In this document: positions 19,549 through 53,432 of the stretch, piece after piece
Numbering within the stretch: the first letter of the stretch is position 1
Layout of the letters: each line of letters starts with the position of its first letter
Assembly (NCBI RefSeq): GCF_000282475.1
Contig: NZ_AKJF01000075.1
Location: forward strand, 36,633 to 100,632
Origin: Pseudomonas sp. GM78
GTDB lineage: Bacteria; Pseudomonadota; Gammaproteobacteria; Pseudomonadales; Pseudomonadaceae
Direction: 5' to 3'
DNA length: 64,000 nucleotides
Position numbers and translations under genes: made by a program
The notes under the pieces: generated by a model
Told to the model about the DNA's origin: nothing
The model's database searches: none
What the model saw: the letters and a program-made list of their open reading frames with translations, nothing else

Positions 19549-19624
19549 TCCGTGATAGCTCAGTCGGTAGAGCAAATGACTGTTAATCATTGGGTCCCAG
19601 GTTCGAGTCCTGGTCACGGAGCCA
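19549..19624 (+). tRNA. tRNA-Asn (anticodon GTT)
   Basis: A 76-base cloverleaf: acceptor TCCGTGA/TCACGGA, D-loop AGCTCAGTCGGTAGAGC, anticodon loop CTGTTAA (GTT at 19582-19584), T-arm GGTTCGAGTCC, encoded CCA. First tRNA of the cluster. Confidence 0.97.
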
Positions 19625-19633
19625 ATTTCAAAC

Positions 19634-19710
19634 CGGGGTATAGCGCAGTCCGGTAGCGCGCCTGCTTTGGGAGCAGGATGTCAGGAGTTCGAATCCCCTT
19701 ACCCCGACCA
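19634..19710 (+). tRNA. tRNA-Pro (anticodon TGG), copy 1
   Basis: A 77-base cloverleaf: acceptor CGGGGTA/TACCCCG, anticodon stem CCTGC/GCAGG around loop TTTGGGA, T-arm AGTTCGAATCC, encoded CCA. Identical in sequence to the copy at 19887. Confidence 0.97.
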
Positions 19711-19715
19711 TTTTT

Positions 19716-19791
19716 GGGTCGTTAGCTCAGTTGGTAGAGCAGTTGGCTTTTAACCAATTGGTCGTAGGTTCGAATCCCACACGACCCACCA
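19716..19791 (+). tRNA. tRNA-Lys (anticodon TTT)
   Basis: A 76-base cloverleaf: acceptor GGGTCGT/ACGACCC, D-arm AGCTCAGTTGGTAGAGC, anticodon loop CTTTTAA, T-arm GGTTCGAATCC, encoded CCA. It lies 5 bases after the first tRNA-Pro. Confidence 0.97.
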
Positions 19792-19855
19792 TTTTTGAAA
19801 CCAGTTAACGCTGGAATCGAATCTTAAGATCAGACGCCAAAAGCTCTGTTCGCAG

Positions 19856-19884
19856 AAGGCGCCTTTCAAAGGTGCCTTTTTTTT
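19856..19884 (+). terminator. Terminator between tRNA-Lys and the second tRNA-Pro
   Basis: AAGGCGCCTTT-C-AAAGGTGCCTT stem with a G-T pair and an eight-base T run. It separates the Asn-Pro-Lys unit from the extra tRNA-Pro copy, which begins 2 bases after the T run. Confidence 0.88.
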
Positions 19885-19886
19885 AC

Positions 19887-19963
19887 CGGGGTATAGCGCA
19901 GTCCGGTAGCGCGCCTGCTTTGGGAGCAGGATGTCAGGAGTTCGAATCCCCTTACCCCGACCA
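19887..19963 (+). tRNA. tRNA-Pro (anticodon TGG), copy 2
   Basis: Exact 77-base duplicate of the tRNA-Pro at 19634, with its own terminator downstream. It follows immediately after a strong terminator with no visible promoter of its own, so its expression would depend on read-through. Confidence 0.96.
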
Positions 19964-22976: not shown

Positions 22977-23039
22977 TGCACAAAACGGATAGCGATCTGC
23001 GTGATGCGGATATTGACCTGCGTCCGAGCCCTCTAGCAT
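22977..23039 (+). promoter_or_regulatory. Double XylS/BenR-type operator and promoter of benKEF
   Basis: Two direct repeats of TGCA-N6-GGNTA form: TGCA-CAAAAC-GGATA (22977-22991) and TGCG-TGATGC-GGATA (22998-23012), separated by exactly 6 bases as at the Pm promoter of TOL plasmids. After a further 21 bases comes TAGCAT (23034-23039), a -10-like element at the same distance as in Pm. The operator points to activation by an AraC/XylS-type regulator such as BenR, not encoded in this window. Confidence 0.82.
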
Positions 23040-23104
23040 CGGCTGTACGGACGTAAGCCGTATTCCCGATGCTCTTAAAAGAAAAACAACAAGAGATGAA
23101 CGCC

Positions 23105-24472
23105 ATGCGCAAAATCGACGTACACGAGGTTATCGACAAGGCTCGTTTCAACCGCTTTCACTGGATGGTGCTGTTCTGGTGTGCCCTGATCATCATCTTC
23201 GACGGTTACGATCTGGTGATCTACGGCGTGGTTCTGCCGATGTTGATGAAGGAATGGGGGCTCAGTCCCCTGCAAGCGGGCGCACTGGGCAGTTATGCAT
23301 TGTTTGGCATGATGTTCGGCGCGCTGTTCTTCGGCCCGCTGTCGGACAGGATCGGCCGCAAGAAAGCCATCACGATATGCGTGATCCTCTTCAGCGGTTT
23401 CACCGTGCTTAACGGCTTCGCCAGGAACCCCACGGAGTTTGGTATCTGCCGCTTCATTGCCGGCCTGGGCATTGGTGGCGTGATGCCCAATGTCGTGGCG
23501 TTGATGAACGAATACGCGCCGAAAAAGATCCGCAGCACCCTGGTGGCGATCATGTTCAGCGGCTACTCGGTGGGCGGCATGCTGTCCGCCGGGCTGGGCA
23601 TCGTGCTGATCCCGAGCTTCGGCTGGCAGTCGGTGTTCTACGTGGCGATCCTGCCGTTGCTGCTGTTGCCGCTGATCATGTATTTCCTGCCCGAGTCGGT
23701 GGGTTTCATGCTGCGCCAGGGGCGCAATGAGGAAGCCCGCCACATCCTCCAGCGGATTGACCCGGCCTACGTCGCACAGGCTGATGACCAGTTGCACATG
23801 ATTGAAGTGAAGGGCACGGGCACCCCGGTGTTGCAGTTGTTCCGCGAAGGCCGTGCACTGCGTACGCTGATGTTGTGGCTGGCGTTTTTCTGCTGCCTGC
23901 TGATGGTCTACGCCTTGAGTTCCTGGCTGCCGAAACTGATGGCCAACGCCGGCTACAGCCTGGGCTCGAGCCTGTCGTTCCTGCTGGTGCTGAATTTCGG
24001 CGCGATCTTCGGTGCAGTCGGCGGCGGTGTACTGGGTGACAAGCTCAACCTGCCGCGCGTGCTGTCGGTGTTCTTTGCCATGGCGGCAGTGTCGATCACC
24101 CTATTGGGCTTCAACAGCCCGATGCCGGTGTTGTACCTGCTGATCGCCATCGCTGGCGCCACCACCATCGGTTCGCAGATTCTGCTGTACGCCTGCGCCG
24201 CCCAGTTCTACTCCATGAACATTCGGTCCACGGGCCTTGGCTGGGCTTCGGGCATCGGGCGCAACGGTGCGATCGTCGGGCCATTGCTGGGTGGTGCCTT
24301 GCTCGGGATCAGCTTGCCGCTGCAACTGAACTTCATGGCGTTTGCCTTGCCCGGTGCGATTGCCGCCATCGCCATGACGGTGTTCGCCATCAGCAGTCGG
24401 CGCAGTGCCCGACAATCACTATCAGGCGCGCAACAGGGCGCGTCTGGTGGAGCTGTCGGCGAGGCTTCATGA
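23105..24472 (+). CDS. benK: Benzoate/aromatic acid:H+ symporter, MFS AAHS family
   Basis: A 455-residue 12-helix major facilitator of the aromatic acid/H+ symporter family. N-terminus MRKIDVHEVIDKARFNRFHW, then the DGYDLVIYGVVLP signature of helix 1, the DRIGRKKA loop 2-3 motif and RFIAGLGIGGVMPN. It is closest by memory to BenK of P. putida. Starts at 23069 and 23096 are in frame; 23105 was chosen for its AAGAG ribosome site and match to BenK. It overlaps benE by 4 bases. Confidence 0.88.
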   Translation: MRKIDVHEVIDKARFNRFHWMVLFWCALIIIFDGYDLVIYGVVLPMLMKEWGLSPLQAGALGSYALFGMMFGALFFGPLSDRIGRKKAITICVILFSGFTVLNGFARNPTEFGICRFIAGLGIGGVMPNVVALMNEYAPKKIRSTLVAIMFSGYSVGGMLSAGLGIVLIPSFGWQSVFYVAILPLLLLPLIMYFLPESVGFMLRQGRNEEARHILQRIDPAYVAQADDQLHMIEVKGTGTPVLQLFREGRALRTLMLWLAFFCCLLMVYALSSWLPKLMANAGYSLGSSLSFLLVLNFGAIFGAVGGGVLGDKLNLPRVLSVFFAMAAVSITLLGFNSPMPVLYLLIAIAGATTIGSQILLYACAAQFYSMNIRSTGLGWASGIGRNGAIVGPLLGGALLGISLPLQLNFMAFALPGAIAAIAMTVFAISSRRSARQSLSGAQQGASGGAVGEAS

Positions 24473-25686
24473 AGACCTTGATGCGCGACTTTTCCCTGTC
24501 GGCGGCCGTCGCTGGATTCATCGCCACGGTGATTTCCTACGCGGGTCCCCTGGTGATCATTTTCCAGGCCGCCGAGGCTGCGCACCTCTCACGGGAAGTG
24601 CTGTCGTCGTGGGTCTGGGCGATTTCCATCGGCAGCGCCGTGCTCGGCATCGGCCTGAGTTTGCGCTACCGCGTGCCGGTCATCATCGCGTGGTCGGCGC
24701 CCGGTTCGGCGCTGCTGGTGGCGTTGTTGCCAGGGATCTCCCTGCCGGAAGCGGTGGGTGCCTATCTGGTCAGCAGCCTGATCATTTTCCTGGTCGGGGT
24801 CTCGGGGGCGTTTGACCGGATCATCGGCAAGCTGCCGGCAGCGGTGGCGGCGGCGATGCTGGCGGGGATTCTGTTCAGCTTCGGCACCGGGCTGTTCGTC
24901 TCGTTGCAGGGCAAGCCGTTGCTGGTGCTGGCGATGTTTGCCACGTACCTGGTCTGCAAACGGCTGATGCCGCGGTATGCGGTACTGATGGTGCTGCTGG
25001 TGGGCTGCTCGATGGCGTTGCTCGCCGGTGATCTGCATCGCGAGGCGCTGGTCATCGGCTTGGCCACGCCGGCGTGGATCACCCCGGCGTTCAGCCTCAG
25101 CGCAACGCTGAACATCGCCTTGCCGCTGGTGATGGTGACGCTCACCGGCCAGTTCGTTCCCGGCATGGCGGTGTTGCGCGCCAGCGGCTACGCCACGCCA
25201 TCGGGCCCGATTATCGCCAGCAGCGCTTTGGGCACGGCCCTGTTGGCGCCGTTCGGATGCCACGGGCTGAACCTGGCGGCGATTACAGCGGCCATTTGCA
25301 CGGGACGAGAGGCCCACGAAGACCCCGGCAAGCGTTATGTGGCCGGGGTGGTGGGAGGCCTGTGTTACCTGGTGCTGGGGATCTTCGGCGCCACCCTGGT
25401 CTCCCTGTTTTCGGCATTCCCCAAGGAGTTGATCGCGGCCCTCGCCGGATTGGCGCTGTTCGCGGCGATTGCCGGTGCGCTGGCGGGCGCGATGGCGGTG
25501 CCAAGCGATCGCGAAGCCGCACTGGTGACCTTTCTCACCACCGCCTCGGGCATGTCGCTGTTTGGGTTGTCCGCGGCTTTTTGGGGGCTGATTTTCGGCA
25601 TGGTCACCCATTTGATGTTGAACAGCCGTCGCGCCGTTGCTCGCAGTGAGCCCACTGCTGAAGCACTTCTACCTGTCGATCAATAA
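24469..25686 (+). CDS. benE: Benzoate/H+ symporter BenE family transporter
   Basis: A 405-residue inner-membrane protein of the BenE family, with about 12 hydrophobic helices and the sequence [20 protein letters not shown] near the start. The [22 protein letters not shown] and [18 protein letters not shown] regions are family hallmarks. It starts within the benK stop (ATGA) and precedes the porin gene by 17 bases, so it forms one uptake operon with two inner-membrane carriers of different families. Confidence 0.9.
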
Positions 25687-25703
25687 AAATAAGAGAAAAA
25701 ACG

Positions 25704-26972
25704 ATGAAACAGATTCTTCCAACAACCGGTTCAGTGTTGTCCATGGCTGTCGTCTCGGGTTTCTCCACCGGCGCGATAGCCGCCGAGGGCGGTTTCATCG
25801 AAGACACCACGGCCACCTTGCAAGCACGCAATTACTACTTCAGCCGCGACTATTCCGACATCGTCGGGGCCAATCAGCAATCGAAGGCCGAAGAGTGGGC
25901 GCAGGGATTCATCCTCAACGTCAAATCGGGTTATACAAAGGGCACTGTCGGGTTCGGCGTGGATGTGATCGGCCTGCTCGGGCTCAAGCTCGACAGCAGC
26001 CCGGATCGGGTCAATACCGGTTTGCTGCCGGTGCAGGATGACGGGCGGGCGGCGAACGATTACAGCCGTCTGGAGGGCGCCTTGAAGATGCGCTACTCCA
26101 AAACCGAACTGAAAGTGGGGGAGTTGCAACCCAACCTGCCGGTGCTGGTGTTCAGCGATATCCGGCTGCTACCGCCCAGCTATCAGGGGGCGAGCATCAG
26201 CTCCAGCGAGATCAATGGCCTGACGCTGCAGGGCGGGCATTTGAATTCCACCAGCCTGCGCAACGAGGCCGGTGACGAAAAAATGCAGGCCATGCTCGGT
26301 CATGTCCCGCAACGTCAGGTCAGCAGTGACGGCTTCAATTTTGCCGGGGCCGATTACGTCTTCAACGATAAACGCAGCTCGGTCAGCGCCTGGTACGGGC
26401 AACTGGAAGACATCTACAACCAGCGCTTCCTGGGGCTCAAGCACAGCCAGCCGATGGGTGACTGGGTATTGGGGGCCAACCTCGGCTACTTCGATTCGCG
26501 CGAGGACGGCAAAAAACTGCTGGGCAATATCGACAACCAGGCGTTCTTTTCGCTGCTGTCGGCCAAGCGTGGCGGCCACACATTTTATCTCGGCTATCAG
26601 GGCATGTTCGGCGACAGTGCGTTCCCACGGGTGTTCGCCAACATCTCACCGCTGGGCAACGAAGTACCGACCTATGAGTTCGCCTTCACCGATGAACGCT
26701 CCTGGCAGGCGCGTTACGACTATGACTTTGCGGCCCTGGGAGTACCGGGGTTGACCAGCACCGTGCGCTACATCAGCGGCAACAATGTCAATACCGGCAA
26801 GGGGTATGAGGGCAAGGACCGTGAACGTGACCTGGACATCGGCTATGTGCTGCAGAGCGGCAGCCTCAAAGGCCTCGGCATCCGTGTGCGCAATGCGATG
26901 GCGCGGTCCAACTACCGCAGTGACATCGATGAAAACCGCTTGATCCTGAGTTACACCTGGACGCTGCTCTGA
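25704..26972 (+). CDS. benF: BenF-like OprD-family outer membrane porin
   Basis: A 422-residue porin with a ~27-residue signal peptide ending IAAEG, then [21 protein letters not shown], the opening of OprD-family channels. It continues with strand-rich repeats and a C-terminal strand ending [10 protein letters not shown]. Family members such as BenF, OpdK and VanP pass aromatic carboxylates. Position behind benK-benE indicates benzoate-type acids. The exact substrate is inferred from neighbours. It is convergent with the DUF2790 gene. Confidence 0.88.
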
Positions 26973-27348: not shown

Positions 27349-28281
27349 ATGGATTTGCTTAACAACTTGCGCGTGTTCGTCCGTGTCGTGGACTGCGCAA
27401 GTTTCACCGCCGCCGCCGACGCGCTGCAATTGTCCACCGCGCAGGTCTCGCGCCTGGTCGCGGACCTGGAGCAGCACGTACAAGCTCGCCTGCTGCAACG
27501 CACCACGCGGCGCTTGAGCCTGACCGAGGCCGGTGAACGATTCCTGCTGCGCAGCCGGCTGATACTCGAAGAAATGGAAGAGGCGACCGCGGAGGCTCGC
27601 GGTGCGCATCTCAAGCCAAGTGGACGGTTGAGGGTGCACAGCATGAACGGCATGGGGGTGCTGATCACGCCGCTGGTTGCCCGCTACAGCGAGCTTTATC
27701 CCGATGTGGTGATCGAGCTGACCCTGTCGCAGCGCAATCCCGATCCGCTGGAGGAAGGTCACGACGTGGTGATTTCGACGGCCCAGGAATTGGCCGATTC
27801 GCAATTGGTCGCCCAGGTCGTCGGGCAGTTTTACAGTGTGCCCTGTGCTTCCCCGCAATACCTGCAACGCCGGGGTGTGCCGGATCATCCGCGGGCGCTG
27901 GACGATCATCAGTGCTTGCGCATGCTCGACCCGCTGTACAGCGATCAGTGGCTGTTTCAGGACGAGGAGGGCGAGCATGCGGTCAGCCCATCCAGGACTT
28001 TTCAGTGCAATGTTGCCGAGTCGATGGTCAAGGCGTCGGAGGCCGGCATGGGCATCAGCCTGATCCCGTTCTACACCGCCACGCGTTCCTTGAGCGACGG
28101 CACCTTGATGCGTTTGCTACCGGACTATCGGCCTCGTCAGCGTAATGTGTATGCGCTGTATCCGTCGCGGCGCTTTCTCGATGCCAAGGTCCGCACTTGG
28201 GTGGACTTTCTCAAGACCGAGCTGCCCAGGCTGTTCGCCGAGCATGAAGCGGTGATCAACGATCCCCTGCATTGGGCGTGA
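27349..28281 (+). CDS. LysR-family transcriptional regulator
   Basis: A 310-residue LysR regulator with an N-terminal winged helix-turn-helix (NLRVFVRVVDCASFTAAADA, residues 6-25, then LSTAQVSRLVADLEQ) and an effector domain of the CrgA/DmlR-like subfamily (LRVHSMNGMGVLITPLV, DVVISTAQEL). Divergent from the DUF2790 gene, so that gene is a candidate target, with autoregulation likely. It is not a BenR-type regulator, so it does not explain the double box before benK. The inducer is unknown. Confidence 0.88.
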   Translation: MDLLNNLRVFVRVVDCASFTAAADALQLSTAQVSRLVADLEQHVQARLLQRTTRRLSLTEAGERFLLRSRLILEEMEEATAEARGAHLKPSGRLRVHSMNGMGVLITPLVARYSELYPDVVIELTLSQRNPDPLEEGHDVVISTAQELADSQLVAQVVGQFYSVPCASPQYLQRRGVPDHPRALDDHQCLRMLDPLYSDQWLFQDEEGEHAVSPSRTFQCNVAESMVKASEAGMGISLIPFYTATRSLSDGTLMRLLPDYRPRQRNVYALYPSRRFLDAKVRTWVDFLKTELPRLFAEHEAVINDPLHWA

Positions 28282-52919: not shown

Positions 52920-53059
52920 GGGATGCACTGTTTGAAGGAATGTTCGGCCAAAACGAAGAATGACCGCATGATGGGCGGGGATTCTAGCATTTAGTCGGGG
53001 GATGGTGTAGGACACAGCGGATATGAAGCGTAGGAGCGAGGCGGGGCGGGGCAAATCGC

Positions 53060-53432
53060 AGAAACTACAAGGGGAGCCGAAGCTCCCCAAGAAGTAGTTG
53101 CATGCTCTATTTTTGTTATTGGTTTCGGGCTTCTTGTTTTTGTTGAGTGCCCTTGCCATGAAGCTTTTCCTTCATGACCCTCCCAATCGGGAGCCAAGAG
53201 CAAACGGATTGCTTTGGTCGCTGTGCTGCAGTGATCTTGCGATCCAACCAGTTCAGGCTCTGTCTTAAGACAGTTTTTTGTTGTTCTCGGCCTGGTCGTG
53301 GGGCAAGCCCCAAATACAACGCCTCTCCAAAAGAATCAGTTAGCTGCGCCTCTCGCCGTCTTGTTTTTATTGTGCGTGAGTCGATTCGTCTTATTTTTAT
53401 TGTCTTGTACGTTGCTTGTTATTGTTCTTGTA
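53060..53432 (-). ncRNA. crcZ: CrcZ small regulatory RNA
   Basis: A ~370-base RNA between cbrB and pcnB on their strand. It starts about 12 bases after a sigma-54 promoter and ends in a GGGGAGC-TTCG-GCTCCCC hairpin (53071-53088) followed by TTGTAGTTT. The minus strand has at least five A-rich CA motifs that bind Hfq/Crc: around 53109-53125, 53129-53145, 53274-53288, 53371-53384 and 53415-53430. Titration of Hfq/Crc relieves carbon catabolite repression. Position, length and motifs match known CrcZ; the exact ends are estimated. Confidence 0.9.

Follow-up and report, generated by a model that had tools for sequence, protein, structure and literature searches.

The stretch under study, a window of 64,000 nucleotides from Pseudomonas sp. 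GM78 (contig NZ_AKJF01000075.1, positions 36,633 to 100,632), carries a predicted aromatic acid uptake operon, benK-benE-benF, behind a double BenR/XylS-type operator (Table 1). The encoded BenK exceeds the cut-off of TIGR00895, the aromatic acid/H+ symport family of the major facilitator superfamily (MFS; 427.5 versus 418.55 bits), BenE passes both TIGR00843 (450.2 versus 203.4 bits) and PF03594 (516.1 versus 27 bits), and the porin passes the OprD family PF03573 (515.1 versus 25 bits). Among solved structures, the porin scores best with an unnamed probable porin (4ft6, 417 bits), a BenF-like porin (3jty, 386 bits) and the vanillate channel OpdK (385 bits); because these scores are similar, the family points to no unique substrate, and the name benF rests mainly on the place of the gene. 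Translation of benK could begin at 23069 or 23105, the latter having the better ribosome site as judged by eye. An earlier, sequence-only reading of the stretch had described the three genes as overlapping, which holds for benK and benE (4 bases, ATGA) but not for benE and benF, which lie 17 bases apart. Its statement that benABCD, catA and a BenR gene are missing at the uptake operon was borne out by a tblastn search (E 1e-20, half the length, 45–60% identity), in which homologues of BenR, BenABCD, CatA, CatB and CatR above these thresholds were absent from the window.

Table 1. Promoter elements and genes of the benK-benE-benF locus (positions of the window)
Feature	Positions	Strand	Basis
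Distal BenR/XylS-type half-site TGCACAAAACGGATA	22977..22991	+	Pattern match; identical to the distal box of benA on contig C53
Proximal BenR/XylS-type half-site TGCGTGATGCGGATA	22998..23012	+	Pattern match; TGCG in 61/66 orphan promoters
-10-like element TAGCAT	23034..23039	+	21 bases 3' of the proximal box
benK, aromatic acid/H+ symporter (MFS)	23069..24472	+	TIGR00895 score; likely true start 23105
A-rich Crc/Hfq-type motif AAnAAnAA, overlapping copies	23079..23092	+	-26 to -13 relative to the likely start of benK
benE, benzoate/H+ symporter family	24469..25686	+	TIGR00843 and PF03594 scores
benF, OprD-family outer-membrane channel	25704..26972	+	PF03573 score; solved-structure relatives

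Ahead of benK, benE and the porin gene, positions 22977–23012 consist of two direct TGCR-N6-GGATA repeats with GCGATC as the 6-base spacer. The arrangement originally proposed, namely a double box with this spacing and TAGCAT 21 bases further on as in the TOL Pm promoter, was confirmed both in the sequence and in the pWW0 record. The two promoters share the 15-6-15-21 layout, two direct TGCN-N6-GGNTA half-sites and a TA...T element, whereas XylS-dependent Pm has TAGGCT and a proximal TGCA in front of the meta-pathway operon, instead of TAGCAT and TGCG in front of a chromosomal uptake operon; 30 of 67 bases are alike. The pair conforms to the half-site pattern of the BenR regulon (two direct TGCA-N6-GGNTA), being one base off the strict consensus in the proximal TGCG. 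With the strict TGCA/TGCA pattern, the window accordingly contains the benK site with one mismatch, and two further sites with three. In the whole genome of 7.29 Mb, exactly two perfect TGCR double boxes were found, before benK and before benA, versus about 0.02 expected, a figure computed from the base composition of the window and with the R in TGCR chosen after the site had been seen. When up to two mismatches were allowed, 18 sites were obtained versus 9 with a reversed control pattern, from which it follows that the looser sites are largely noise, whereas the two perfect ones stand out. A third site of this genome under the looser pattern, C196:30627, has one mismatch to TGCR.

The second perfect double box (C53:8613–8648) is situated on another contig, C53 (13,300 bases), directly behind benR and ahead of benABCD. 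This contig carries a LysR-type gene, catB, catA, benR, benA, benB, benC and benD. CatB (538 bits versus a cut-off of 335, TIGR02534), CatA (459 versus 392, TIGR02439) and BenA (885 versus 781, TIGR03229) pass their family models, as do BenB, BenC and BenD, each above its own cut-off; the LysR-type product stays below the cut-off of every named model (best BenM, 241 versus 600), and 'catR' is therefore a name by place. The benR gene stands directly before benABCD, and its product carries AraC-type domains, shares 59% identity over 316 residues with the XylS of pWW0 and is without a close paralogue in GM78 (729.7 bits, versus 61.9 bits for the next best match). In the benA promoter, the distal box is identical to that of benK in 15 of 15 bases, the proximal box begins with TGCA, and TAGCAT follows at the same distance. 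C53 yielded no homologues of benK, benE or benF; downstream of benD only 0.9 kb of the contig is left, with a NUDIX gene on the opposite strand. The sequence-only reading had postulated control in trans by an AraC/XylS-type regulator encoded elsewhere, and had named benR, benABCD and matching boxes as things to look for in the rest of the genome; C53 provides all of them, and the trans-control is supported by benR and the double-boxed benA promoter together. A genome devoid of AraC/XylS homologues, which that reading had set as a refuting outcome, is thereby excluded.

The conservation of the arrangement was assessed among named genomes, using the best 80 of 303 confirmed relatives. The fetched DNA of 67 loci (L038–L104) contains no BenA homologue, and these are called orphan; the other 13 (L105–L117) contain benABCD. 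The full double box is present in 66 of the 67 orphan loci, and the remaining one, L070, differs by one base, having CGCA instead of TGCA in the distal box as does genome G049. Since the double box is so consistently kept, the separate-uptake layout is old. Over 66 different promoter sequences, the window included, variation is lowest in the whole distal box and at the fixed letters of the proximal one, and higher at the inner positions of the latter and between it and the -10 element. Of 66 loci, 61 have TGCG in the proximal half and five have TGCA. A DUF1780 gene occurs in the fetched upstream DNA of 62 of the 67 loci, in 44 of them less than 500 bases away as in the window. At the thresholds used, a benE homologue was not found in four orphan loci (L085, L089, L096 and L099), which suggests that BenE can be spared. 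P. fluorescens PS662 possesses two orphan benK operons (L096 and L075) on different contigs, each with its own double box.

A survey of 149 Pseudomonas genomes for double boxes with TGCN halves yielded 93 sites in 73 genomes, versus 5 with the reversed control, and 67 of these precede benA, 14 precede benK and 12 lie elsewhere. Among the 57 genomes with BenK, the uptake and dioxygenase genes are split in 15, joined in 39 and neither in 3 (G042, G116 and G126). The two loci of the split genomes are on different contigs in 12 of 15 cases and 0.6–3.1 Mb apart in G046, G049 and G128, and the DNA fetched around benABCD contains no benK, benE or benF homologue in any of the 15, GM78 included. The proximal half is TGCA in all 15 benA promoters of the split genomes and TGCG in all 14 fully matching benK promoters, the fifteenth, of G049, departing by a single base in its distal half. 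TGCG occupies the proximal half in 1 of 26 benA sites of joined genomes; over all 67 benA sites it is present in 3 proximal and 14 distal halves. These counts come from related genomes and do not represent independent events. A BenA at least 94% identical is encoded in 19 genomes, none of which has BenK beside benA; 15 have the orphan operon and four (G005, G100, G107 and G137) have no BenK at threshold, so that, on an evolutionary scale, the uptake operon seems dispensable. Three of the 12 sites elsewhere precede benF-like genes, in G071 (L121) and G092 (L122) beside catR of the ben/cat region and in G131 (L118) at another place, and, judging from these boxes, the same regulator can also target the porin gene on its own. 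One further site, in G073, is at a contig end, and seven are unlike ben boxes. The remaining one, a perfect double box in G126 (L119:1219–2171), precedes an open reading frame with a BenK-like start and a chemoreceptor signalling domain at its end; a deletion or fusion seems to have left this scar and placed another gene under the box. The benKEF operon of this genome has a near-box with one departure.

On the basis of these data we assign, with considerable confidence, the benK-benE-benF genes to the BenR regulon as an uptake arm with its own operon, predicted to be activated in trans by BenR and to be subject to an additional Crc/Hfq layer; one regulator would very probably turn on the uptake and the breakdown sets. 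According to this scenario, benzoate-bound BenR, produced from the cat-benR-benABCD cluster on the other contig, would bind to both half-sites at 22977–23012 and, in the manner of XylS at TOL Pm, recruit RNA polymerase to TAGCAT. The benK, benE and benF genes, presumably co-transcribed, would then be made together, the porin allowing aromatic acids to pass the outer membrane and the two putative symporters carrying them through the inner membrane, and the imported acids would be converted by BenR-controlled BenABCD. Such a role of BenR is in line with findings in relatives: in P. fluorescens, according to the available part of PMC1360089, inactivation of benR abolishes the induction by benzoate and Pben has XylS-type half-sites, and P. 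putida benF is described as BenR-regulated in the accessible text of PMC3827995.

The A-rich motif at the starts of benK and benF probably adds repression by Crc/Hfq while better carbon sources last. Both its definition as AAnAAnAA and the practice of predicting Crc targets with it follow PMC3003667, the accessible portion of which gives sizeable false-positive rates and reports P. putida benR as a shown Crc target. The copies ahead of benK lie within the range of -70 to +16 of the start codon that defines a candidate target. In GM78, the motif is present before benK, benF, benR and benA, and absent before benE, benB and catA; on comparison it was found in 60 of 61 orphan loci, the count leaving out 6 of the 67 for which the script had found no start, and never on the reverse strand. 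Catabolite control of the uptake operon appears likely from this distribution. The small RNA CrcZ is an antagonist of Crc/Hfq repression. Its gene (Rfam RF01675, 349.7 bits) is encoded in the same window as the motif-bearing operon, at 53038–53431 on the minus strand, a closeness that is probably a coincidence.

Several observations weigh against the assignment to the BenR regulon or blur it. As the assembly consists of 235 contigs, it does not give the distance between benR and the operon. Neither a sigma-70 promoter scan nor a terminator scan behind benF gave a result above shuffled sequences. The TAGCAT of the window is the rarer form of the -10 element, matching the benA promoter of the same genome and not most orphan promoters: among the window and 66 loci, 67 sequences in all, TACCCT occupies this place 63 times, TAGCAT twice, and TACCAT and TAACCT once each. 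Nor is the box universal at ben genes, since 86 benA hits in 84 of the surveyed genomes face only 67 boxed sites, and among the 13 named loci with a ben cluster, three (L108, L109 and L116) have no double box on the scanned strand. Part of the work may be done by paralogues, namely a BenE 53% identical on C57, the only one in the genome, beside guanine deaminase and xanthine dehydrogenase genes, and the next BenK relative among many MFS matches, 47% identical, on C211. A double box with up to three mismatches was not found at the C57 gene; the C211 stretch has a single three-mismatch site inside the carrier gene, which is at chance level, at least one such match occurring in 17 of 200 shuffles. 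Finally, work cited in PMC3827995 suggested, as far as the accessible text goes, that BenF exports benzoate.

Other explanations of the operator have to be considered in the light of the same data. The genome contains 64 matches to the AraC helix-turn-helix family, and another activator of the AraC/XylS type, for example the one beside anthranilate-dioxygenase-like genes on C128, might control the operon. We regard this as very improbable given that BenR is the only strong match among the regulators of the genome and that the benA promoter adjoining its gene has the same box. C128 is, moreover, devoid of a double box at up to two mismatches, and its fetched stretch has no exact half-site and 16 one-mismatch sites versus 19.9 expected by chance; the accessible portion of PMC1360089 likewise describes the anthranilate promoter of P. 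fluorescens as having no XylS-type site. Almost no credence is given to the idea that the proximal TGCG, departing as it does from the TGCA consensus, marks a half-site in decay, with a promoter that is either silent or constitutive. The orphan benK promoters conserve TGCG while most inner bases of the box vary, this form is not rare in the halves of benA sites, and it is found in the inducible Pben of P. fluorescens, there with a spacer of 5 (PMC1360089, available part). That TGCG tunes the affinity, as the sequence-only reading suggested, may be a good idea, for which the comparison supports the conservation only. It is also improbable, in our view, that the operon is controlled by BenR but mainly transports another aromatic acid, so that 'benzoate-type uptake' would be a misnomer. 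The nearly equal scores of the porin to three solved structures and the occurrence of BenE-family proteins in other settings, as that of the C57 paralogue, would agree with such a cargo; against it, BenK and BenE exceed their family cut-offs and three transport genes stand together behind the box of a benzoate regulator.

The assignment to the BenR regulon leaves room for different origins of the uptake operon. The sequence-only reading had it that uptake was split from catabolism. The separate placement is evident, neither locus carrying genes of the other, whereas a split-off from the resident cluster is put in doubt by the disagreement between the BenK and BenA trees. The BenA of the split genomes groups with the chlororaphis-type BenA (support 100/98), a grouping with strain 2FG and G060 being rejected by the approximately unbiased test (p-AU 4.7e-7), whereas for the orphan BenK the grouping with the chlororaphis-type BenK, from the clusters with the nearest BenA, is rejected (p-AU 0.018); the tested groups were chosen after identities and first trees had been seen, which makes both p-values somewhat generous. 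In the best BenK tree, the orphan BenK is placed with 2FG and G060 with a support of 83/93, below the bar of the tool, and in the BenE and BenF trees the orphan genes stay together and are not placed with 2FG. BenR and BenD of G058, which align in two pieces, were both left out when the proteins were tabulated. Among the benA promoters compared, that of 2FG is nearest to the majority sequence of the orphan benK promoters (51 of 67 bases, versus 40–46 for 12 others), agreeing in 19 of 20 positions when the proximal box is taken together with the next five bases; in the box part its lead is slim (32 of 36, with two others reaching 31).

The BenK and BenA trees and the promoter comparison favour, short of proof, a derivation of the uptake operon from another ben lineage, maybe by loss of the genes between Pben and benK. 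A simple transfer of the operon as a block out of the resident ben cluster is conceivable but somewhat doubtful: related clusters do carry benK, and mostly also benE, after benD, and the fetched surroundings of benABCD in the 15 split genomes are empty of BenK, BenE and BenF homologues, yet the BenK of these genomes stands apart from that of the nearest-BenA clusters and the closest benA promoter belongs to another lineage. A more far-reaching scenario combines a foreign ben cluster, reduced by the loss of its catabolic genes and with Pben fused to the carriers, with two promoter grades, TGCA for catabolism and TGCG for uptake. We consider this combination rather doubtful; if true, the weaker proximal half would let uptake rise later or less than breakdown, and the toxic acid would not be imported before the enzymes are present.

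The benK-benE-benF system is a rearranged version of the well-known BenR regulon, of a known kind in a less usual arrangement. The BenR-controlled clusters of P. putida KT2440 (benABCD, benK, catA-II, benE-II, nicP-I) and P. bharatica CSV86 (benABCDKcatAbenEF) share BenR, the dioxygenase genes and the kinds of transport genes with GM78, but have the transport genes, according to the available text of PMC8711041 and PMC12918735, inside the ben cluster and not in a separate double-boxed operon. In Ralstonia eutropha JMP134, benK and benE are also placed apart and predicted as CatM/BenM targets in the same regulon as the catabolic genes, with a LysR-type regulator and another operator (PMC6449761, accessible part). 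No description of a BenR-boxed benK-benE-benF operon standing apart was encountered in the literature searched, which did not extend to most subscription journals, so that one may have been published. The arrangement is a clean natural example of how the genes for taking up a substrate and those for degrading it lie apart, in many genomes of the P. fluorescens complex, and yet have the box of one activator in common. The conserved TGCG/TGCA difference provides a ready promoter pair for asking whether operator strength orders uptake and catabolism, and the locus might help in choosing carriers and promoters for strains engineered to use benzoate or acids derived from lignin.

Two features flank the operon within the window. 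A LysR-type regulator gene (27349–28281, plus strand) is located 3' of benF; since in L101–L104 relatives of 75–78% stand behind benF too, at another location, it may travel with the uptake operon. About 3 kb upstream of the operon, four tRNA genes (Rfam; 19549–19960, plus strand) form a possible integration hot spot.

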